A DNA stretch of 38,737 bases from a virus, in IMG/VR virus record IMGVR_UViG_3300044859_002925, positions 1 to 38,737 of that record. The stretch is one strand, 5' to 3'. The notes under the pieces were generated by a model, which was given only the letters and a program-made list of their open reading frames with translations, searched no databases and had not been told where the DNA came from. Positions 2,821 to 38,737 of this stretch are shown here, piece after piece. The translations under genes and the position numbers were made by a program. The stretch's first letter is position 1, and each line of letters opens with the position of its first letter.

Positions 2821-4026
2821 TTATCCAATATAAATTAGTAGTGGAACAGTCTTCATGATTGATGTCATCTTTTCAGTTTCATCTGCTTTAGCTTCCATTT
2901 GAGCTTTACGACTAGTAGCTTCAAGATTTTCTCTCAATTGTGTAATTAACGATTCTTTTTCAGATGCCGCTTCACTTCGTAATTCGGAACCATCCAATGT
3001 TACTTCTCCACCAGGAATTGGAATTGTACTATACTTCTGTCTTATCATACCAAGATTTTCTTTGCACAATGCCAAGAAATATTTCTTCACCCATTGTTTA
3101 CCAACAGCATTTAATTTATAGTATGTAACATTTTGATATGGCACATTACTATAATCACTAACCACATCATAATTGCTTCCACTACTAAATGTATTTGCTG
3201 CACTAAATTTATCTTTTTCAACTACATATTCAATATAAAGTTTGTAATCATATGTTGGAATAGGAAATATCTTTAGTTTATTATTTACAATTTCAAAACT
3301 ATAAGCACTTTTACGAACCAAATCATTAAATTCAATTGCTTGACCTCTCAATAAATCTTCAAATATTGGTGTCATCAAAAATTGTGTGGCAGGACTATAT
3401 CCAGCAAATCCCATTTCACCAAGTACATTACTGTAACTCATACCAGTCATACTAAATGGATCATAAATACGAGCAAATGCTGGTGGTGGACCATGAAATA
3501 CTCTTCTAATTTCAACTCTACTTCCACTTTCAATATTGGTGCCAATTAGTGTCTGCAAATCATATGTTTGTTGACTTGCGCTCAATTGAATAGGTACTTT
3601 TTTAATGTCAACATATCCACCTACACCAATTTCACTTCCATATCCTTTTGTTAATTGAATTATATATGGTAATCCTGTTCCTATTACATTTTTACCATTG
3701 ATATTTGGATTATCATTTGTATTTAATCCTTGTAAACTTAATAAATTGTTTCGTATATTAAATTGATTTACTTGAGCGCCATATTCATTGACGGATTCTT
3801 CAAATGCAGCATAAAAATTTACATCAATTAATTCAATATCAATGATTGGATACCCCATTCTTTTTGCTGCCCATTCCGCACTCTTTTCACAGTCATATTC
3901 AAAATAACCAACGCTACCACTTAAATACGATTCGTTTAAGTAAAATCCAAATGGTATACTGCCTGTATTTACAGCACTGCCACTCCCCGGCCATCGAATA
4001 CGATCCTGATCAAGATTAGCACTCAT
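2821..4026 (-). CDS. gp13: gp13-like neck / head-completion protein
   Basis: A 401-residue protein at the head of the 13-14-15 neck series, 6 bp before the gp14-like gene. The N-terminal part holds AAKRMGYPIIDIEL and FYAAFEESVNEYG (about 53-80), a pattern I recall from gp13-like neck proteins of marine T4-like phages. A long beta-rich middle follows. The C-terminus (about 365-395) is helical and charged with EKESLITQLRENLEATS. In T4, gp13 binds the portal after DNA packaging. It is longer than T4 gp13 (309 aa). The gene is preceded by a TATTTATA motif about 30 nt upstream. Confidence 0.7.
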   Translation of the reverse strand: MSANLDQDRIRWPGSGSAVNTGSIPFGFYLNESYLSGSVGYFEYDCEKSAEWAAKRMGYPIIDIELIDVNFYAAFEESVNEYGAQVNQFNIRNNLLSLQGLNTNDNPNINGKNVIGTGLPYIIQLTKGYGSEIGVGGYVDIKKVPIQLSASQQTYDLQTLIGTNIESGSRVEIRRVFHGPPPAFARIYDPFSMTGMSYSNVLGEMGFAGYSPATQFLMTPIFEDLLRGQAIEFNDLVRKSAYSFEIVNNKLKIFPIPTYDYKLYIEYVVEKDKFSAANTFSSGSNYDVVSDYSNVPYQNVTYYKLNAVGKQWVKKYFLALCKENLGMIRQKYSTIPIPGGEVTLDGSELRSEAASEKESLITQLRENLEATSRKAQMEAKADETEKMTSIMKTVPLLIYIG

Positions 4027-4089: not shown

Positions 4090-4800
4090 TTATAATCCAA
4101 ATCTACTTTTAACAGCATTATAGTTCCGCAATACTTCAGATGCGGTTAATTCTCTATTGTATATTTGTATATTAGATACAGAGCCGGACCAATAAGCACC
4201 GGTGGGTCTTCTACCTATTTGAATAGTATCTGTAGTTGTCGCATATACTAATCCGCCTAATGTACCTGTACCATTACTTAAAACACCATCTATATATATT
4301 GATGTTGTATTACTTCCAAGATTTGTTGTATTAGTTGTATATACTGCTACTATATTTCTCCAAGTATTATTATTGACTGTTGCTGTACTTGATCTGTTAT
4401 AAGTATTAGTACCATCAGAACCTTTTGTAGTACCGGAAACTGTTCCTGCGGAGTCAAATTGAAACATCCAACCAGCCGTAGAAGCAGTCGCACCTTTAGA
4501 AATAATAACACCACTTGTAGCGCTTGTTTTTATCCATAAACTCACAGTAAATGTGACATTTGCAAATTGAAAAGTTGTTCCGGTATTAACTGTATCTACA
4601 TAATCATTGGTACCATCAAATACTATACTACCCAAATTAGCATCACTAAAAGTAGGACCGTTAGTTAAAGTACCTGTGTTATTATTACCACTTAAATCTG
4701 ACCAAGTGGTACCACTACCAGGATAACTTTTATTATTAGCCGCATCTAGTGCAAGCACCAAACCATTTGTAACTATTTTTGGTGAATGTGATAATCCCAT
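4090..4800 (-). CDS. LamG/concanavalin-like jelly-roll protein, paralogue A
   Basis: A 236-residue protein, the last transcribed of three tandem paralogues. It shows the LamG-type (Laminin_G_3) pattern: NGLVLALDAANNKSYPGSG at the N-terminus, LSGNNNTGTLTNGPTF, IVFDGTNDYVDT, FTVSLWIKTSATSGVIISKG, a YIDGVLSNG hairpin, and a C-terminal IYNRELTASEVLRNY. This fold commonly binds glycans or decorates virion surfaces. There is no signal peptide or membrane segment. N- and C-terminal ends are nearly the same in all three copies while the core differs. Likely role: a virion adhesin or head/fibre decoration (inferred). No Shine-Dalgarno is present; the start follows AATTATAGTAT directly. Confidence 0.8.
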   Translation of the reverse strand: MGLSHSPKIVTNGLVLALDAANNKSYPGSGTTWSDLSGNNNTGTLTNGPTFSDANLGSIVFDGTNDYVDTVNTGTTFQFANVTFTVSLWIKTSATSGVIISKGATASTAGWMFQFDSAGTVSGTTKGSDGTNTYNRSSTATVNNNTWRNIVAVYTTNTTNLGSNTTSIYIDGVLSNGTGTLGGLVYATTTDTIQIGRRPTGAYWSGSVSNIQIYNRELTASEVLRNYNAVKSRFGL

Positions 4801-4809
4801 ATACTATAA

Positions 4810-5496
4810 TTATCTACCAAATCTAGATTTAGTTGCGTTATAATTTTGCAATACTTCAGCTGCGGTTAATACTCGGTTATATATTAGAAATTGTGATATG
4901 TTGCCATTTACATAACTAATACTATCTCTTATATCTGCACCAATAGTAAAATCATTTGTACTTATACTTGCATTAAGTGCAGCTGTACCAGTACCCGAAG
5001 AATATCCATCGATATAAAATGTACCATTTGTAGAATTTTTTGTAAATCCTAAATATTGATAAACATTTGTTGACAATGTTCCGGCAGATTGAATAAAATT
5101 AAAACCCATAGAAGAATCATAATCCCAATATACTAATCTTGAATTGGCTTGTTGCAATTGAGCTTCTGTTACTGCGTCTGATGCACTTCTTCCTAAACTA
5201 AATAAAATACCGTATGTACTCATAGAATTAAATTTTGCCCATAACAATACGGTATATGTCGATGAATTAAAATTACTAAGCGATGAACGATAAATATAAT
5301 CATTTGTACCATCTAATGCTATACTGCCCATATTTGATGCATTAAATGTAGGTCCATTGGTTAATGTACCATTATTATCATTTCCGCTTAAATCGGTCCA
5401 AGTTGTACCTGAACCAGGATAACTTTTATTATTTGCAGCGTCTAAATGTAATACCAATCCATTTTCATTTATATCTGGTCCACCTTTGCTTGACAT
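4810..5496 (-). CDS. LamG/concanavalin-like jelly-roll protein, paralogue B
   Basis: A 228-residue protein, the middle member of the trio, starting MSSKGGPDINENGLVLHLD. It shares the NKSYPGSGTTWTDLSGN and LTNGPTF blocks and the terminal YNRVLTAAEVLQNYNATKS with its neighbours. The central sheet (about 65-190) is diverged: it has YTVLLWAKF and a FYIDGYSSGTG hairpin but different loops. This points to duplication followed by diversification of the putative binding face. The spacer to paralogue A is 9 bp. The start is preceded by AATTATAGTAT, the same leader as paralogue A. Confidence 0.8.
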   Translation of the reverse strand: MSSKGGPDINENGLVLHLDAANNKSYPGSGTTWTDLSGNDNNGTLTNGPTFNASNMGSIALDGTNDYIYRSSLSNFNSSTYTVLLWAKFNSMSTYGILFSLGRSASDAVTEAQLQQANSRLVYWDYDSSMGFNFIQSAGTLSTNVYQYLGFTKNSTNGTFYIDGYSSGTGTAALNASISTNDFTIGADIRDSISYVNGNISQFLIYNRVLTAAEVLQNYNATKSRFGR

Positions 5497-5505
5497 ATAC
5501 TATAA

Positions 5506-6195
5506 TTATAAACCGAATCTACTTTTAGTAGCATTATAGTTCTGCAATACTTCCGATGCGGAGAGACCTTTGCCTTTGTAAACTTTAACGTTACTAATCC
5601 TACCATTGAATGCTTCATCATTCTCATGAGAAATACCAATTCTTAACTCTGTTTTATCATTTGGAATAGATACGCTTCCCGTATGACTATTTTGAGACAC
5701 GCCATTTAGATAAATAGTGGTTACACCAGAAATTCTTGATACAGTATAATGATACCACTGAGATGCCGAAATTGTATCATTTGTTGCTATATTTATCGCT
5801 GCATCATCACCGCCGAAGAACTGCATTTTTTTACTGGATGTCACAAGCCTTGCGACAAAATCGAGGTTTGATGTCCAGACAACATATTTAGACATAAAAA
5901 TAGAATTTACGCTTACTGTGTTAAAGTACACCCAACATTCAATAGTAAAATTTCCTGTTCCAAAATTAAAATTCTCACCCGTTGTGATTGATGTATAATC
6001 ATTTGTACCATCAAATACTATAACACCACCGTTACTAACACTAAATGTGGGTCCATTGGTTAGTGTACCTGTGTTACTATTACCGCTTAAATCGGTCCAT
6101 GTAGTACCTGATCTAGGATAACTTTTATTATTAGCAGCATCAAGTGATAATACCAATCCATTTGTAATTATTTTCGGTGAATATTTTGTAGCCAT
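5506..6195 (-). CDS. LamG/concanavalin-like jelly-roll protein, paralogue C
   Basis: A 229-residue protein, the first transcribed of the trio. It has the shared ends (NGLVLSLDAANNKSYP; SASEVLQNYNATKSRFG) and FTIECWVYF, WYHYTVSRISGVTTIYLNG and IGISHENDEAFNGRISNVKVY, a textbook LamG core. The copy carries SYPRSG where the others have SYPGSG. It lies 46 bp after the Cys-containing protein gene, with the leader AAAATTATAGTTT. Virion surface lectin or adhesin is the best guess; the ligand is unknown. Confidence 0.8.
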   Translation of the reverse strand: MATKYSPKIITNGLVLSLDAANNKSYPRSGTTWTDLSGNSNTGTLTNGPTFSVSNGGVIVFDGTNDYTSITTGENFNFGTGNFTIECWVYFNTVSVNSIFMSKYVVWTSNLDFVARLVTSSKKMQFFGGDDAAINIATNDTISASQWYHYTVSRISGVTTIYLNGVSQNSHTGSVSIPNDKTELRIGISHENDEAFNGRISNVKVYKGKGLSASEVLQNYNATKSRFGL

Positions 6196-6241: not shown

Positions 6242-6811
6242 TTACCAATTTCTACAACTCCAATATCCGGCAGTGGTTCTATCTTTCTTTTGATCACATT
6301 TGTGTCTTGCTCTAAAACTTTTCCGTCTAGATTTACTGCTTACTCGTATTCGCATGTTAGGATCACCAAATGTAACTTTCTTTATTTTTCCTGCTTTTGA
6401 TCTAACATATACAGCAAATTTCTTCGGTCCTCCTGGAGTTCTAAATGGTCTACTAAGATGTACAGTTCTACCTCTGTGTTTTGCTTCATTTAGACATTCA
6501 TTGTGTTCCAATTCAATTGGCGCATCTAAAAATACTTCTCGTCCATCATAAATAGATTTTATACCCAGATCACTTTCTACAATATCCAAATCATCATCAT
6601 TTAATTCAATTGCGTCATCATTATACAAACCACGAACTTCATTAACCAATTTAAAATATGATTCACTGTAAATTCTAAAAACATTTTGTTCCAATGTTAA
6701 TCTATTATCCAAATGATACTTCAATCTATCACTAATACCCACTTCTTTAACCAACTTCATTGGTTCACTCTTTTCAACAATAGCATCCACAATGTCACTC
6801 AAATATATCAT
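6242..6811 (-). CDS. Conserved phage head-module protein with basic Cys-containing C-terminus
   Basis: A 189-residue protein starting MIYLSDIVDAIVEKSEP. The N-terminal half is helical and acidic (LNDDDLDIVESDLG). The C-terminal half is basic, with HLSRPFRTPGGPKKFAVYV, KKVTFGDPNMRI, RRKSFRARHKCDQ and the end GYWSCRNW. I recall this Cys-containing GDPNM/RRKSFRARH tail as a common module in T4-like phages, with no established function; it may bind metal or nucleic acid. I chose the ATG at 6811 rather than 6865 because the longer frame runs through the gp23 terminator hairpin, and because a TATTTATA motif sits 4 nt upstream of 6811. Confidence 0.75.
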   Translation of the reverse strand: MIYLSDIVDAIVEKSEPMKLVKEVGISDRLKYHLDNRLTLEQNVFRIYSESYFKLVNEVRGLYNDDAIELNDDDLDIVESDLGIKSIYDGREVFLDAPIELEHNECLNEAKHRGRTVHLSRPFRTPGGPKKFAVYVRSKAGKIKKVTFGDPNMRIRVSSKSRRKSFRARHKCDQKKDRTTAGYWSCRNW

Positions 6812-6815
6812 ACTA

Positions 6816-6823
6816 TATAAATA
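6816..6823 (-). promoter_or_regulatory. TATTTATA motif before the Cys-containing protein gene
   Basis: TATTTATA followed by TAGT and then the ATG at 6811. The motif lies just downstream of the gp23 terminator, as expected for a promoter that restarts transcription. The 4-nt gap would give a leaderless mRNA. Confidence 0.5.
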
Positions 6824-6888: not shown

Positions 6889-8556
6889 TTAGATCTGATC
6901 TAAATCAGATACATATATCTTGCCGTAGAATTCTGGACGGACAACTTTCTTAGCATAACGAGTCAATACTCCACGACGTGGGGTGAAATTGACTGGATCG
7001 TATACCAATGGAGTTTGTACGAGTGGGATGTATGGAGCATATACTGCGCCTGTTTCGAGGAAGTTATTTCCACGGAAGCCCATCAAGATGGTGTTTTCTT
7101 GCATGTATGGGTTCTTGTAGACTTGGAAGCGACTTGCGAAGCTACCAACACGACTTACACCCATTGCGAACTTAGCACTATCACCGTCAGTGTTAACAAC
7201 ATATCCTGGGATTGATTCCAAGATGGTTGCTACGTCTGGTCCTACGACCAAGAAGTTTGCACCACCACGTAGAGTCAATTGGTGAATCTTGTTAGATACC
7301 TTTTGGATCTTGTTACCAAGTGTTGAGAACCAAGTGCTCTTTACGTAAGCAGTACGATTGGTTGAATCGTTATTTACAGTAAAGGTTGGTAGACCGTTAG
7401 CATCGTTAGCACCCTTGATGATGTCCTTACCGATTACTGCAGACCATCCTTCAGTTGTCAATGCTGGAGCAGCATTAATCAACATGTCCATGATTTCAAG
7501 ATCAATTTCCATTGATACATATTCACTCAATAGAGCAGTCAATTCTGCTTCTGCATCAATGCTGTGGTAAGCATTCAAGTCTTGAGCCAATTCTGGTGTC
7601 CAGACTGCCTTTAACTTACGAGTCTTAGCAACGATTGGTTCGCTCTTAAGTTCCAAGTTAACTTCTGGAATGTTGATATCAGTAGACAAACCAGATGTAC
7701 CTGCTGCAGCGCTAGTACCCTTATCTTCGAAGTCACCACGGGTAGCATCAGTAGGTTGTTTTGTGAATGTCAATGTTGCATTTGCACCTTGTACAGGTGC
7801 TTGTGAACCAGTAACAATGAATTGAATTTTATATGTTGGGGAAGCCAATGTACCGGTATTGTATACCTTTGTCATTTCATTGATTTGAAGTGTTGGATCG
7901 ATTGCTGAACCACTCAAAGCAAAGCTTCTTACTGCGTTCAAGTCGATGGTTGCTGCATTTGAACCAACGTCTACTGTTAGTTTTTTATATGAACCAGTAG
8001 CAACATAGGTTGCATTCAAATCAACATCACTGAAACTTACTGATCCGGTTGTTACTGCAAATACAGAAGATGTGTAGTTTTCGGTATAAGCATAACGACC
8101 TACACCGTATAGACCGTTTGTTGCAGTATCGGTAGAACCAAGTTTTAGTCCTGTACCACCGAATAGTGATTGACCGTTATAACCGTTTTGGCCTGGAAGA
8201 CCATTACGGGTAGTACCATACTTGAAGTCTAGATAGAAGATTAGACCAGATGGTAGATTCATTGGTTGTACTGAAACGAATTCCTTAGCGGAAATTTCAG
8301 CGAATACACGACGAACGAGTGGGAGAGCTACGCCTGCCCATTGTTCACTGTTAGCAGAAGTACCAGTGGCGGTAGCTTCGTTTAACAATTGTTGTGCTTG
8401 GTTTTCAAGCAAGATGGACATGTGTGCCTTATCGACACCGTTTAGTCCTTCAAGAAGACCAGTCTTGTCCCATTTGCTTTGTAATCCACGGGTTTCAGTC
8501 ATCAACTTAGCCTGTGGATTCATATTGTTTGTCAATAATGATTTAATATCACTCAT
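6889..8556 (-). CDS. gp23: Major capsid protein (T4 gp23-like)
   Basis: A 555-residue protein that forms the hexamers of the head shell. After a helical propeptide comes LLNE|A (E60/A61), aligning with the T4 gp23 maturation site LTE|A. Then follow PLVRRVFAEI, FVSVQPMNLPSG, an inserted beta-rich segment (about 130-290), KAVWTPELAQDLNAYHSIDAEAEL (T4: KAAYSIELAQDLRAVHGMDADAEL), NFLVVGPDVATILESI, FLETGAVYAPYIPLVQTP and the terminal RPEFYGKIYVSDLDQI. The length is close to T4 gp23 (521 aa). Codons are richer in C/G-ending forms (AAG, TTC, AAC) than in neighbouring genes, fitting very high expression. It lies 43 bp after the scaffold gene and ends at a strong terminator. Confidence 0.95.
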   Translation of the reverse strand: MSDIKSLLTNNMNPQAKLMTETRGLQSKWDKTGLLEGLNGVDKAHMSILLENQAQQLLNEATATGTSANSEQWAGVALPLVRRVFAEISAKEFVSVQPMNLPSGLIFYLDFKYGTTRNGLPGQNGYNGQSLFGGTGLKLGSTDTATNGLYGVGRYAYTENYTSSVFAVTTGSVSFSDVDLNATYVATGSYKKLTVDVGSNAATIDLNAVRSFALSGSAIDPTLQINEMTKVYNTGTLASPTYKIQFIVTGSQAPVQGANATLTFTKQPTDATRGDFEDKGTSAAAGTSGLSTDINIPEVNLELKSEPIVAKTRKLKAVWTPELAQDLNAYHSIDAEAELTALLSEYVSMEIDLEIMDMLINAAPALTTEGWSAVIGKDIIKGANDANGLPTFTVNNDSTNRTAYVKSTWFSTLGNKIQKVSNKIHQLTLRGGANFLVVGPDVATILESIPGYVVNTDGDSAKFAMGVSRVGSFASRFQVYKNPYMQENTILMGFRGNNFLETGAVYAPYIPLVQTPLVYDPVNFTPRRGVLTRYAKKVVRPEFYGKIYVSDLDQI

Positions 8557-30658: not shown

Positions 30659-33600
30659 TTATACATAATTAACTTTAGAGAACCCGTTTTCTTTCTTAAT
30701 TTCAAGTCTATTGTCAACCATATCCCTCATACTATCCAAATGACTAATAATCCATACGAAATCAAAATTAGTCTTTAAGAAAGCAAATAAAGCACCCATA
30801 GATGATAAATTATCAGCATCAGCACATCCAAATCCTTCATCTATAGCTATAAAGTTGGGTCTTGGTAGATTACTGATATTAATTAATGCGACTCTCATAG
30901 CCAGTGAACTAACAAATCGTTCCATACCACTCGCCAATTCTAATGGCCAGCGTTTATCTTCGTAATTAATATGTGTAGTTACATTTTTACCATCTGTCTG
31001 TAAGGTTACCGTAAATTCTACTATTTGGTTTAATATGTTATTTACTTCTTTTTCAATTGTTGGTAATGCCTTACTAATCAATTCATATGGAATACCATCT
31101 CTGGATATTGCATTTGTATACAATTGATATGCTTCATATTCAACTTCAAGTACTTTAACATCTTCAATTGATTTTTGAATAGTCTTTCTTTGTTCTTCAA
31201 ATCCAGAAATTTTTGTATTATAATTGATAATATTGTTATTTACATTCTTAATTTCTATATCAATAGTTTTGATATTGGATTTAATTGAATCAATTGTATC
31301 TTTAACAGTTTTGTTAGATTCAATTGCATCTTTATTATTATAATATTCTTCAATTTGACTTTCAATATTAATTAAAGAATTCTGTTCAGAACTAATCTTA
31401 TTTGATATTTTTAGAATTTCAGTATTTAATTTGTTAATTTTAATCTGTGTTTCAACATATAATTTATGAACATCATTATACTTTTTCCAATGATCTTTTA
31501 TATAAGACACTTCATTAATTTTGTTTTTAAGATTATTATATTCACTAACAAGACTTTGAGCTTCAACTTTATCTAATTCCAATTCTTCTCTTGTTTTAAT
31601 TGCATCTTTAACGAACACATTTGTTGTACAAAAATTACAATTTGGATCATACTTATGTTCTTCTAACTTCTTTAATTTCTGTAGTTTAGATGTAACAACA
31701 ATCTTTTTCTTTTCAATAAGATGTTCTTTTTGACTAAATGACGATTCTAGTTCTTTGAACAATTCATACTTAGTTGTAATATCATCGTTTTCATAGTTCT
31801 TTATAATTTCATCATATTCTTTGTATGTTGATTCAATAGATGATAATTGATACTTATATGAATTTAAACTAGAAGATTGTGTTGATATAGAATTTTCTAA
31901 TGAAATCTTTTTTGATTCAATAGAAACAATATCAATAATATTACTGTTAATATTAATAAGTTTTTTGGTTTCGTCTAAAAGACATTCATTTTCAGAATCC
32001 CGATTGTTAGATAGTTTTTCTAAATTAGTATTTTCATTTTTTAACGAGCCCGAAAAGTTTTCTATATCAGAATTTAAATTCAATAAATTCTGGGTATAAT
32101 CATTATTCTTGAAATTCTTTAATAATGAATTAATTTCTTTAGTCTTATCAGCCGCATCGTTATACAAACTGTCAAATATAGTTAGTCCCATAAATTGAGC
32201 CAACAAATCTTTTCTTTCTGTTTGTCCCATATCTACAAATGATCCAACCTTATTGTTTTGAATACTCAATACAGTTAAAATAAAATCATCATATGTACCT
32301 ACATAATCACGAATAATATCATTGGTACTTCTACGAGCTTCACCGTTAAGTTCTACAACTTTACCACCTTCTTCTTTCCAGAACTTTACATCTACTTTGA
32401 CATTGCCTTTTTTATCCGCATGTCCTTTTCTTTCAATGAAGAAATCTACACCATTAACTTCAAAGTTAAACTTACAACGGAATGTCACCTTTTGCGTATT
32501 AAGAATGTGAGATGCTTTGAATGCTCTATCACATTTATCAAAAATACAAAAAGATAATGCAGACAATACACTTGATTTACCCGCAGCATTATTAGCAAAT
32601 AATCCAACTACATTATGCATCTTAGTAAAGTCAATAACATTGTCTTCACCATAACTAAACATATTGTCAAATTCAAATTTCTTAGGTTTCCATCGAATAT
32701 TTCTAACGATAGATTCTTTTTCTAAAGAAACATTTAAATCTTTGTTTATTTTATAAATCTTTTCAAGTGTATCTTTTGTTGGATTTAAATTCTGGTTACT
32801 AAGATAGTCTGTTATCAACTTATTTTGATAATCAACATCAGACACATCGGCTAAATTAAAATTATTATTATCAATAATATTACTTGAAGATGTATTTAAT
32901 GAATCTACACGAACATATGTCACTTCCATTACCTCTGATTTTTCTCGGATAGATGACAATACAGATTTAACTTCAGTTGCAACGCTTTCAAAACACTTTA
33001 ATCTAAGTCTTGCCTTTTTAGGCATATTAGAAATATCAGTAATTAAGTTACCTTTATTGATTTCCGCAGTATAAAATCCATAATCATTTGGAATTTCAAA
33101 GTGTTTAAATACTTTGGTCTTTAAATCCCAAAATACAAATCCGTGACCTTTAAGATCTTCGCCATGATTCTGTTGGATCAGTGAACCACAATAAACAATT
33201 ATTGGATCAGATTGACTTAGAACTTGATGTCTGTGAATATCTCCCAACAATACAATATCGTGTCCGTCAAAGATTTCGTTTTTAATAGTTCTACTCGCAA
33301 CTTTATATCCTACATCAGTAATTGCATTGTTTACTGGACCGTGGAATAAAGCAATTTTATAACGGGTTTCATTTAAATAAATCTTTGGAATGTCTTTTAC
33401 TTTAATATATTTATCCGGTTCATCAAATACACTATAGTGATTAAACAAAATATCGCCCAAGATATAAAGTCCAGAATCCTTTAGATAAAATAAATTAGGA
33501 TGATTAATTGCGTTAACAATTGGACTCAAACTATCTAATCTGTTTTTATTGGCCAAAGTAGCATCGTGATTACCTGAAATCAATATCGTTGGTCTTCTAT

Positions 33601-33844
33601 CTGCTAGATTTTGTAAAAATTCAGATGTAATCTTTACACATTCAGGTGAAAGATCGCTCTTTGAATGCAAGACATCTCCTAATACGGTAACTACGGTTTC
33701 CGTAGGTGTCTTTTCTATTGCTTTATACAATCTTTCAAATACTTGATTGTATTCATCGTGTCTCTTTGTAAGACGTAAATGAATATCCGCAATGTGAAAT
33801 ACATTCTTGAATTTTTCTATATCTGATTTAAGATATTTTGCCAT
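30659..33844 (-). CDS. Fused Mre11-Rad50 (T4 gp47-gp46 / SbcD-SbcC) recombination nuclease
   Basis: One 1061-residue protein carries both subunits of the end-processing complex. The N-terminal calcineurin-like phosphoesterase has DIH (20-22), GDVLH (56-60), GNHD (91-94), LFHG and LGDIHRH. The second part starts with FDNMFSYGEDNVIDF (about 395) and Walker A FANNAAGKSS (about 415-424, with Ala where Gly is usual). A long coiled coil follows, interrupted by the zinc hook CNFC at about 735, then signature-like LASGMERF, Walker B NFIAIDEGFG (about 1000) and a D-loop region. In T4, 47 and 46 are separate genes. The protein resects double-strand ends for recombination-dependent replication. The start is 1 bp after the primase stop. 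Confidence 0.95.
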   Translation of the reverse strand: MAKYLKSDIEKFKNVFHIADIHLRLTKRHDEYNQVFERLYKAIEKTPTETVVTVLGDVLHSKSDLSPECVKITSEFLQNLADRRPTILISGNHDATLANKNRLDSLSPIVNAINHPNLFYLKDSGLYILGDILFNHYSVFDEPDKYIKVKDIPKIYLNETRYKIALFHGPVNNAITDVGYKVASRTIKNEIFDGHDIVLLGDIHRHQVLSQSDPIIVYCGSLIQQNHGEDLKGHGFVFWDLKTKVFKHFEIPNDYGFYTAEINKGNLITDISNMPKKARLRLKCFESVATEVKSVLSSIREKSEVMEVTYVRVDSLNTSSSNIIDNNNFNLADVSDVDYQNKLITDYLSNQNLNPTKDTLEKIYKINKDLNVSLEKESIVRNIRWKPKKFEFDNMFSYGEDNVIDFTKMHNVVGLFANNAAGKSSVLSALSFCIFDKCDRAFKASHILNTQKVTFRCKFNFEVNGVDFFIERKGHADKKGNVKVDVKFWKEEGGKVVELNGEARRSTNDIIRDYVGTYDDFILTVLSIQNNKVGSFVDMGQTERKDLLAQFMGLTIFDSLYNDAADKTKEINSLLKNFKNNDYTQNLLNLNSDIENFSGSLKNENTNLEKLSNNRDSENECLLDETKKLININSNIIDIVSIESKKISLENSISTQSSSLNSYKYQLSSIESTYKEYDEIIKNYENDDITTKYELFKELESSFSQKEHLIEKKKIVVTSKLQKLKKLEEHKYDPNCNFCTTNVFVKDAIKTREELELDKVEAQSLVSEYNNLKNKINEVSYIKDHWKKYNDVHKLYVETQIKINKLNTEILKISNKISSEQNSLINIESQIEEYYNNKDAIESNKTVKDTIDSIKSNIKTIDIEIKNVNNNIINYNTKISGFEEQRKTIQKSIEDVKVLEVEYEAYQLYTNAISRDGIPYELISKALPTIEKEVNNILNQIVEFTVTLQTDGKNVTTHINYEDKRWPLELASGMERFVSSLAMRVALINISNLPRPNFIAIDEGFGCADADNLSSMGALFAFLKTNFDFVWIISHLDSMRDMVDNRLEIKKENGFSKVNYV

Positions 33845-36484: not shown

Positions 36485-38737
36485 TTAGATATCCCATTTT
36501 ACCAAAATATTTAGCGGTAATTCACCACTATTTTTAATTGGCATACCCAATTTAGCCACAGCAACCAAATCACCACCACTATAAAGTCCTACAGTTGTTA
36601 TATATGGTGCCAAATAAGAACCAGTTGGGTCAATTGAAGAACTATAATTAAATCCAAAGAATTCTTGTTTTATAGACTTACCACCAAATTTACCCGTCTT
36701 TTGTTCAATATAACTTATAATTTGTTGTAAAGTTTTTCTGGAAGACTTTGGTTCTACATACTTGAATAATTCGGTTTGATTCAAATTGTCATTAAAATAC
36801 TTCCATAGTATGTACATATCATTCAAATTAACTTTATTATTACCATCAATATCAAAGTTTTTATAATTTGATATTAAATTTGAATTGTAATTGGATGTAT
36901 AACTTGAAGAAATGTTATACTTTACAGAATAAAGATTAAATAATGATTGTTCATCATTTGTAAATGTCATATAATCCCACCAATTATATGATGTATTGAT
37001 TTGATAATTAATGTATTTCAGAATCAAATCTAAGTCAGTAAAATCAAAAGATTTATTATTATCAATGTCAAATTCAAATGTATTTGGAATTAATGATGTA
37101 GGATTTGTACTATAATTAAATTCTCCCGATTCAATTCTACATAATACTTGTTTTTCATATAGTTTAACATTGCTCTTATATTCAATGTTATATTGAGATT
37201 GTAATGTGTTGGAACGATCTTTTAATAAATTATCAAAAATTGAACCACTATTTGATAAAATAATCTTACCGTCTCTATAAAATACATTTCCAATATGATA
37301 ATTCGTTACAAGATCGTTGAAATTATAAATGTAAGCATATCCTTTTATATTATCATAAATGGAATTATCTAATAATGAAGATGTAAGTTGTTCCGGATTA
37401 TAAATGAATGTAGGAGATCCAATTATAGTTGTCGTGTTTTCTTTATCATAAATTGCACTACTATAACCAAAATTTGAATATGGGTATCCATATTCTTTCT
37501 TTTTTGTAAATGTAGATTCAATTTGCCATGTCGATGATGTTAATTGATTGTAAATTACAAATTGTCCTAAAGTATCAATTACAGAATCATTTGGATTACA
37601 ATCGTATCGTTTAAATAATGTATTAAATATATAATTTGTACAATATGTTCGTATATCTCTAACACTAGTTGCAATAGCTTTATTATTATAAATCCCTACG
37701 GAAAATCCTAAATTATTTGATTCTAAAATATTTTCATTGCCAAATGATTTATCCAACAAAAACCAATCAGTTGCATCTGAACATTTTTTCCAAAAATAAA
37801 CAGATCCTCTATTTCTTAAAACTGTGGAACCACTCCATTCATAATAATACATATCATTAGGTGATCCAATTATAATCGTGTCGCCATATATGGATACTGA
37901 ATTACCATAATTACTTCCACTAGGTTGACTTCCTAGAAAATATGGTTTTGTATTAATGAAATTTAATGATCCAGTAATAGTTCTATCTTGATCCAGTGTA
38001 TCGTTAAGTCCCCATTGATATGTAGATGTATTTAACTCGTATACATAAACGGCACTTCCAGTTGATTTGTTGCCAACCACTATTCTATTAGATCCACTAG
38101 GATCAATTTTTACAACACCACCGAAATAACCATTACTTACAAATCCATTCAATGTTTGATAATGTAAATAATTACCATTAAATGATTGTGTATAAATATA
38201 TGTCGCACCAATATTTGAATTTACATTGCTAGATCCAACAACTAAAATTGATGTATTTAATAAACTGGAGTATACGATTGATACTGATTCTCCAAATGTA
38301 GAATTTGTATATGTAGCATCAAATGAATTCGTAATACTGTACAATGGATATTTATTACTTGAACTATTATAAGTTTCCAAATTGTAAATATCAACACTTG
38401 ATCCAGTCAAAATCTCCGAATTATTAGTTAGTGAATAATAAAAAAATGGACATCCTACAACAACAATTGATGATGATAGTGCAACTGATACACCATAAGA
38501 ATCACCATAATAATATAAATTATCGGTTAAATCTAATTCAAAATTCAAACCATTTACATTGGAAGATGTATCCGCATTTAATATTATTGTATCTAAACTG
38601 GAACTGTCAATTAATAAGAAAGAATTGACATCAGACAAAGGTATATACTTTTTGATTGTAAATTGTGTTTCATATTCATCAGTAATAGATGAATATTTTG
38701 AAATATCAACAAATCCTCTTTGACAGTAATCGCTCAT
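36485..38737 (-). CDS. Large virion protein with FG-GAP-like repeats and dockerin-like pair
   Basis: A 750-residue protein; the start codon is the last three bases of the window, so a longer N-terminus beyond the edge is not excluded. Residues about 75-490 contain at least five FG-GAP/integrin-type units (YGDSYGVSVALSSSIVVVGCP, FGESVSI, YGNSVSIYGDTIIIGSP, LGFSVGIYNNKAIA, FGYSSAIYDKENTTTIIGSP), suggesting a beta-propeller. At about 555 and 629 lie two calcium-loop motifs, DIDNNKSFDFTDLDLILKYI and DIDGNNKVNLNDMYILWKYF, as in dockerin type I. The C-terminus APYITTVGLYSGGDLVAVAKLG...ILVKWDI resembles ends I recall from T4-like tail/baseplate proteins. Confidence 0.75.
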   Translation of the reverse strand: MSDYCQRGFVDISKYSSITDEYETQFTIKKYIPLSDVNSFLLIDSSSLDTIILNADTSSNVNGLNFELDLTDNLYYYGDSYGVSVALSSSIVVVGCPFFYYSLTNNSEILTGSSVDIYNLETYNSSSNKYPLYSITNSFDATYTNSTFGESVSIVYSSLLNTSILVVGSSNVNSNIGATYIYTQSFNGNYLHYQTLNGFVSNGYFGGVVKIDPSGSNRIVVGNKSTGSAVYVYELNTSTYQWGLNDTLDQDRTITGSLNFINTKPYFLGSQPSGSNYGNSVSIYGDTIIIGSPNDMYYYEWSGSTVLRNRGSVYFWKKCSDATDWFLLDKSFGNENILESNNLGFSVGIYNNKAIATSVRDIRTYCTNYIFNTLFKRYDCNPNDSVIDTLGQFVIYNQLTSSTWQIESTFTKKKEYGYPYSNFGYSSAIYDKENTTTIIGSPTFIYNPEQLTSSLLDNSIYDNIKGYAYIYNFNDLVTNYHIGNVFYRDGKIILSNSGSIFDNLLKDRSNTLQSQYNIEYKSNVKLYEKQVLCRIESGEFNYSTNPTSLIPNTFEFDIDNNKSFDFTDLDLILKYINYQINTSYNWWDYMTFTNDEQSLFNLYSVKYNISSSYTSNYNSNLISNYKNFDIDGNNKVNLNDMYILWKYFNDNLNQTELFKYVEPKSSRKTLQQIISYIEQKTGKFGGKSIKQEFFGFNYSSSIDPTGSYLAPYITTVGLYSGGDLVAVAKLGMPIKNSGELPLNILVKWDI

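Follow-up and report, generated by a model that had tools for sequence, protein, structure and literature searches.

Probable exchange of LamG cores between conserved gene ends in a three-slot array of a T4-like phage

The gp38 adhesins of T-even phages, as described in the portions of the reports consulted, intersperse conserved motifs with hypervariable segments by which specificity is determined (PMC6851490, PMC10844046). The consulted parts of other sources describe hypervariable structural-gene regions and concanavalin A (ConA) domains in T4-like marine phages, together with host recognition clusters and metaviromic islands (PMC7029224, PMC3909814), and LamG/ConA domains are likewise known there from phage structural proteins (PMC7824862, PMC7029224). 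Here we report an analysis of three tandem LamG genes, lamC, lamB and lamA, in the virus record IMGVR_UViG_3300044859_002925, whose 38,737 nucleotides (nt) are called the window (WIN). The record carries T4-like genes for the gp23 capsid protein, gp20 portal, terminase, prohead protease and tail sheath. The LamG trio lies on the minus strand, flanked by gp23 and orf193 on one side and a neck gene on the other, and is transcribed in the order lamC-lamB-lamA; we refer to these genes as slots 1, 2 and 3, respectively, and to the loci of relatives by L-numbers. We consider it likely that they form a three-slot rack in which the ends of each slot are kept and the cores are swapped by recombination, probably changing what the virion sticks to.

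Conserved ends and divergent cores

Each of the three proteins consists of a Laminin_G_3 domain and little else, and all three exceed the curated cut-off of 27.6 bits for this family: lamC, the first open reading frame of the array (5506..6195, minus strand like all features of the array; 229 amino acids (aa), 79.0 bits), lamB (open reading frame 4810..5496; 228 aa, 71.9 bits) and lamA (open reading frame 4090..4800; 236 aa, 79.4 bits). The domain is also matched, at E up to 0.001, by 77 of the 80 members of family set A3. A preliminary description of the window had proposed three tandem LamG paralogues with conserved ends and divergent cores, and this pattern is borne out by the distribution of the 77 residues that are invariant among the three genes: residues 1-67 contain 47 of them and residues 206-236 another 17, against 13 in the stretch 68-205 (Fisher p = 8e-20 for ends versus core). 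Protein identity within the trio is 77-84% in the N part and 79-84% in the C part, with 20-30% in the core. Across 313 unique full-length genes of the family, the mean majority-residue frequency is 0.68 in columns 6-66, 0.28 in columns 67-205 and 0.74 in columns 206-229. This set was partly retrieved with end-derived peptides; a recount restricted to the 18 unique genes whose loci had been retrieved exclusively through flanking genes, which is less subject to retrieval bias, gave 0.64, 0.32 and 0.77 for the N part, core and C part.

The same description had pointed to a nearly shared leader, and the three lamG starts do carry AATTATAGTTTATG, AATTATAGTATATG and AATTATAGTATATG, exactly, with no further exact match in the window. 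Because two of the three leaders stand directly 3′ of the preceding lamG stop codon, within which arrangement the 9-bp spacers between lamC and lamB (5497..5505) and between lamB and lamA (4801..4809) belong to the shared leader, we regard the leaders as part of the repeated unit. The leader was also considered as a phage-wide signal and rejected as such: allowing up to two mismatches, seven matches were found versus 3.8 expected, and 9 of 100 shuffles reached seven.

The likeness of the ends is maintained at the protein level. At fourfold sites, the ends of slots 1 and 3 match at 39.6% versus 38.6% expected from codon usage, and the other two slot pairs (1-2 and 2-3) match at 54-61%, moderately above chance, with 68-92% within a slot (the pairs are not independent); these values led us to reject recent gene conversion among slots as the main cause of the shared ends. 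Selection on the ends at the DNA level was rejected family-wide, the excess of codon identity being small and of mixed sign. The ratio of nonsynonymous to synonymous substitution rates (dN/dS) of the 5′ end is 0.13-0.33 across the pairs lamA-L005, L011-L085, L003-L015 and lamB-L004. Judged from the sequences, the ends are old, conserved as protein and diverged at synonymous sites between slots. Protein constraint thus keeps the ends alike, and this likeness in turn offers homology for exchange.

Relatives with replaced, shared and lost genes

Searches with the three lam genes, with orf193 and the neck gene, and with two slot-specific leaders retrieved related loci. Both flanks are present at 97% or higher protein identity in seven of them, namely the three-gene loci L002 (the window's own allele), L003, L010 and L011 and the empty loci L084, L086 and L087. 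Slot order in the filled loci is set by the N-termini, MATKYSPKIITN in slot 1, MSSK(G/C)GPDINEN in slot 2 and MGLSHSPKIVTN in slot 3, with the exception of L015, whose neck-adjacent gene begins MGISRGPKIVSS. In L010, L011, L012 and L157, DNA homology to the window (blastn) enters slot 1 from the flank and ends at codon 67; downstream, it reappears in the last 16-24 codons.

In slot 1, the 5′ framework (codons 1-67; 5995..6195) is 88-96% identical at the nucleotide level in L003, L010, L011, L012, L157 and L158, the exchangeable core (5554..5994) is 54-62% identical in all seven relatives compared (global alignment), and the 3′ framework (5506..5553) is 83-100% identical in six near relatives and 77% in L009. 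In slot 2, the 5′ framework (codons 1-67; 5296..5496) is 79-100% identical in L003, L010, L011, L158 and L009, with maximum-likelihood switch points at codons 16 and 51, and the 3′ framework (4810..4857) is 90-100% identical in five relatives. The core between them (4858..5295) is 99% identical in L003 and 84% in L009, with 55-59% in L010, L011 and L158; L003 shares slot 2 whole with the window, in a 955-bp stretch of 97.4% identity that begins at the end of slot 1 and reaches codon 67 of slot 3, while its slot 1 and slot 3 cores differ from those of the window. In slot 3, the 5′ framework (codons 1-67; 4600..4800) is 100% identical in L085, 91% in L003, 86% in L009 and 74% in L010, L011 and L015, the core (4162..4599) is 27-56% identical in the same slot of six relatives, and blastn homology resumes in the 3′ framework (4090..4161) in L003, L010, L011 and L015. 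Taken over all slots, the 5′ ends are mostly 76-100% identical to those of the window, the values of 74% being those of slot 3 just given, and same-slot cores are 40-62% identical (global alignment), except for slot 2 of L003 and L009 and the fused slot 3 of L009 (27%). Among the related phages, the 5′ end of a slot is thus mostly kept and its core replaced between flanks that are ∼97-99% identical, and ends and cores are discordant rather than uniformly divergent along the length, as the cassette model of the preliminary description implied. Core similarity was undetectable in 21 of the 45 pairs whose 5′ ends reach 90% identity or more; most of these lie within the clade of the window, and elsewhere the pattern is seen in L284/L285 and in L005 versus L004, L251, L263 and L269.

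The reciprocal situation, in which one core occurs in different frameworks, is seen as well. The lamA core is 95.5% identical to that of L005:5575, with ends of 72% and 65%, and the synonymous divergence (dS) of the 5′ end, core and 3′ end is 1.39/0.048/1.11. The lamB core is 98.6% identical to that of L004:5805, which has another 5′ end (84.5%; dS 0.37/0.035/0.14). L011 and L157 carry in slot 1 a core that recurs at 97.6-98.1% identity in slot 3 of L085, although the 5′ ends are just 76-77% identical (dS 0.84/0.09/0.35 for L011-L085), and L003 and L015 have slot-3 cores of 93.8% identity under 5′ ends of 75.6% (dS 0.78/0.12/0). The dS of the flanking genes is 0.02-0.14. As the flanking genes of the window were not found in the L004 and L005 loci when these were compared with the window genes, both represent other phages or other places. 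A strict test of discordance, requiring a 5′ dS of at least 0.3 and at least four times the core dS, was passed by six of 39 same-core pairs, representing about four independent events. Such discordance within a gene is the signature of recombination, not of uneven selection. Together, the slot-specific ends, replaced cores, cores shared between differing frameworks and dS discordance in the DNA of relatives uphold the proposal of duplication with cassette exchange.

Several observations weigh against so orderly a scheme. The other 33 of the 39 same-core pairs fail the strict test, mostly since both parts are close, and no donor was found for the lamC core, for which a search of viral_contigs returned only the window's own allele. 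In L010 and L011, identity to the window is no more than 74-81% at the 5′ ends of slots 2 and 3, and the slot-3 gene of L015 carries a foreign 5′ end, from which frameworks appear sometimes to be exchanged too and not to be strictly fixed. Finally, some near-identical phages have no array at all, and the rack is hence not essential.

The empty sites L084, L086 and L087 keep GATT(T/C)GGATTATAAATC, that is, the last 14 bp of the slot-3 gene plus the start of its 3′ flank, and because this slot-3 remnant is kept they have the appearance of filled sites from which the array was deleted. Slot 3 of L009 holds a 487-aa protein combining LamG with Gly_rich_2, and a fossil LamG 3′ end lies across and behind the stop codon of this gene in another frame with one internal stop (TEI*QNYNAIKSRFGL*). 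Read from sequence, the empty sites and this fossil point to both loss and replacement. Other cargo in the interval includes Fibrinogen_C-like and amidoligase-like proteins in L121, as well as an 87-aa protein and homing-endonuclease-like genes in relatives. The Fibrinogen_C-like protein (E 2e-5) and a further protein of 228 aa, with a cysteine-rich tail and no Pfam match, are encoded beside a LamG gene at L121:6164-6913 and L121:4512-5195, and other binding folds may be using the same site. Homing-endonuclease-like genes flank the neck gene at L106:5212-6030 (NUMOD3 motif), L126:6225-6995 and L003:6895-7797 (HNH-type match).

Virion role, mechanism and competing explanations

In the scheme we favour, a T4-like phage would bear a three-slot rack of single-domain LamG (ConA-like) proteins among its structural genes. 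Each slot would tend to keep its 5′ end (∼67 codons plus the leader) and its 3′ end (∼16-24 codons), and the core of ∼140 codons, with most of the jelly-roll strands and loops, would be replaced as a block, the same cores recurring elsewhere, be it another slot, another phage or another place. The ends would be kept by protein selection, probably because they dock the protein onto the virion or a partner, while the cores would probably carry the ligand-binding surface, such that a swap alters or widens adhesion, for example to host surface glycans. The rack is dispensable, some near-identical phages having lost it.

An AlphaFold2 model of lamC, the only protein modelled, has a mean predicted local distance difference test score (pLDDT) of 91.8 and a predicted template modelling score (pTM) of 0.90, and places strands 14-19, 43-46, 50-52 and 58-62 in the N part, the strands from 67 to 207 in the core and a helix (213-227) at the C end. 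The closest solved match to this jelly-roll fold is arabinanase AbnA (Z 23.7, 196 residues aligned, 2.4 Å; VIA-align), the matched part being the carbohydrate-binding domain 4, which has also been solved with an arabino-oligosaccharide; carbohydrate binding by the LamG proteins is a fair guess from this match of the model. Fold and sequence matches extend to the binding domains of clostridial toxins and sialidases, at 12-20% identity among the matches listed, which reflect a shared fold and say nothing about toxicity. All three proteins match PHROG 8510, annotated as virion structural protein. We take the LamG/ConA-like fold, the AbnA match, the PHROG 8510 label and the "structural protein" labels on two tandem LamG genes of the cultured Flavobacterium phage immuto as hints that the proteins may sit on the virion and that their cores may bind different glycans. 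A role off the virion, with the proteins acting inside the infected cell or at its surface (superinfection exclusion and secreted lectins are examples), would suit the loss of the rack and the lack of any docking domain beyond the lectin fold in the Pfam scan and the lamC model. We nevertheless hold it to be improbable, given the site between capsid and neck genes, the virion structural labels in PHROG 8510 and immuto, and the fact that LamG genes stand directly upstream of the neck gene even in phages whose neck protein has just 36-48% identity (L021, L022, L050, L060, L256 and L293).

As to how cores are exchanged, the preliminary description had proposed a test for recombination breakpoints at the shared ends, and such points were found. 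In L085, the slot-3 framework gives way to the L011-type core within the 9 bp AATGATTAT in codons 65-67, and other comparisons switch at around codons 16, 29, 34, 38, 51, 56-58 and 67, as maximum-likelihood points in which a single pair may merge several events. Since the switch points vary, they are better explained by homologous recombination within the conserved ends than by the action of a site-specific enzyme, and ordinary phage homologous recombination with the ends as homology arms, presumably during coinfection and by the corresponding enzymes, would be the most likely route. A dedicated mechanism, whether a site-specific recombinase, a diversity-generating retroelement or homing endonucleases cutting near the array, could draw on the several switch points at codon 67 and on the homing-endonuclease-like genes adjoining the neck gene in L106 and L003, which could stimulate nearby exchange. 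We think it quite unlikely, as the switch points at codons 16, 29, 38, 51 and 56-58 do not resemble a fixed site, the replacement of entire cores differs from the point changes that a retroelement makes, and no recombinase or reverse transcriptase was present among the window proteins scanned with Pfam (a subset of the open reading frames of this 38.7-kb fragment record). The variation is likewise not that of a target of a diversity-generating retroelement, the slot cores being unrelated over their whole length and showing no scattered point changes relative to a template repeat.

It should also be considered that metagenome assembly may have joined different genes at their conserved ends, as the clade is represented by metagenomic contigs throughout and strains could be mis-joined in the long stretches over which same-slot ends are identical. 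Such chimeras are very improbable, because alleles recur in separate assemblies (the window array in two other contigs, the L003 slot-1 allele in L013 and the L009 array in L008) and because the L085 switch falls within 9 bp where the longest nearby stretch common to all three sequences is 18 bp, the words used in assembly usually being longer than this; chimeras would also leave the empty sites and the L009 fossil unexplained. Least credible of all is plain divergence of old duplicates, with ends under purifying selection and cores evolving fast in place without exchange, which accords with the protein constraint on the ends and may fit older cores but is ruled out for the cases cited, where same-slot cores are unrelated at the DNA level despite flanks ∼99% identical and recurring cores with dS near 0.05-0.1 stand between ends of dS 0.4-1.4, a synonymous-site pattern that protein-level selection does not yield.

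Beyond core exchange by recombination at this locus, we tentatively raise the possibility, which we rate well below that reading, that aquatic T4-like phages share a mobile pool of LamG cores moving as cassettes among fixed display slots, both inside one genome and across distinct phages, and yielding combinatorial three-lectin virions, perhaps with the help of homing endonucleases. The locus offers a base-pair view, in natural populations, of a phage altering a probable binding surface without disturbing the remaining structure. Through its conserved ends the system can be searched for in metagenomes, its cores constitute a library of natural lectin-like domains with testable ligands, and the exchanges provide a countable read-out of recombination among coexisting phages.

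Gene setting and known systems

Upstream of the array lie gp23 (6889..8556, minus strand; Pfam Gp23, E 1e-72), the major capsid protein gene, and orf193 (6242..6823, minus strand; PHROG 7595), which is 99-100% identical at the protein level in L003, L010, L011 and L012. Downstream lies neck401 (2821..4026, minus strand), a head-tail adaptor of the Ad2-like type (PHROG 211, E 9e-11) with 99% protein identity in L003, L010, L011 and L015. Codons ∼151-300 of gp23 (window ∼7657-8106) are hypervariable, with 67-83% nucleotide identity to L003, L009, L011, L012, L087 and L157, while against the same six relatives codons 1-100 are 97-99% and codons 451-500 are 97-100% identical; this would be a second variable part in the structural cluster, perhaps a capsid surface domain. 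At the edge of the window, p363 (1-1089) is highly variable, with 61-77% protein identity in L008, L010, L011 and L015 next to genes that are ∼99% identical. Window 30659-33844 encodes a 1061-aa protein with a calcineurin-like phosphoesterase and an SMC-like AAA domain, which we take to resemble a fusion of T4 gp47 and gp46, and window 36485-38737, at the other edge, encodes a 750-aa protein with an FG-GAP repeat match, possibly an adhesin-like virion protein. The terminase shares 54.5% identity with a Microcystis phage terminase and 52% with its counterpart in immuto.

Among the closest known systems is a 227-aa, single-domain ConA-like/LamG protein of an uncultured Caudovirales phage (BFVD A0A6J5NKQ5; TM 0.91, 41% identity), which has the same fold and recognisable ends, as do proteins of cyanophages S-SKS1 and S-PM2; the latter two differ in carrying the LamG domain within larger proteins, and for none of these is slot-wise core exchange described in the portions of the texts consulted. 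With lamB as query, the DNA match among cultured phages was a 74-bp 5′-end stretch in S-SKS1 (81%); seven matches to cellular genomes were weak, at 25-33% identity. Phage immuto, the best cultured parallel, encodes two tandem single-domain LamG genes, gp051 and gp050, whose ends are again more alike than their cores. This pair occupies a later position in the structural cluster, beyond a tail-fiber-like gene, and the phages listed are near-identical, hence exchange is not visible there.

Pfam and PHROG scans of the three window proteins gave LamG-type and other matches and no gp38, and the proteins also have no run of polyglycine motifs. LamG core exchange between slots was not found in the phage literature, as far as titles and abstract openings cover it and with many journals lying outside that coverage. 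At the gene level, the array resembles gp38 in that conserved parts flank exchanged parts, which may here set specificity, but unlike gp38 it replaces whole lectin cores in three slots. The host recognition clusters and islands are larger and replace whole genes, whereas here exchange occurs inside three small genes. Modular adhesin swapping is known, and its slot-and-core form is a new variant.
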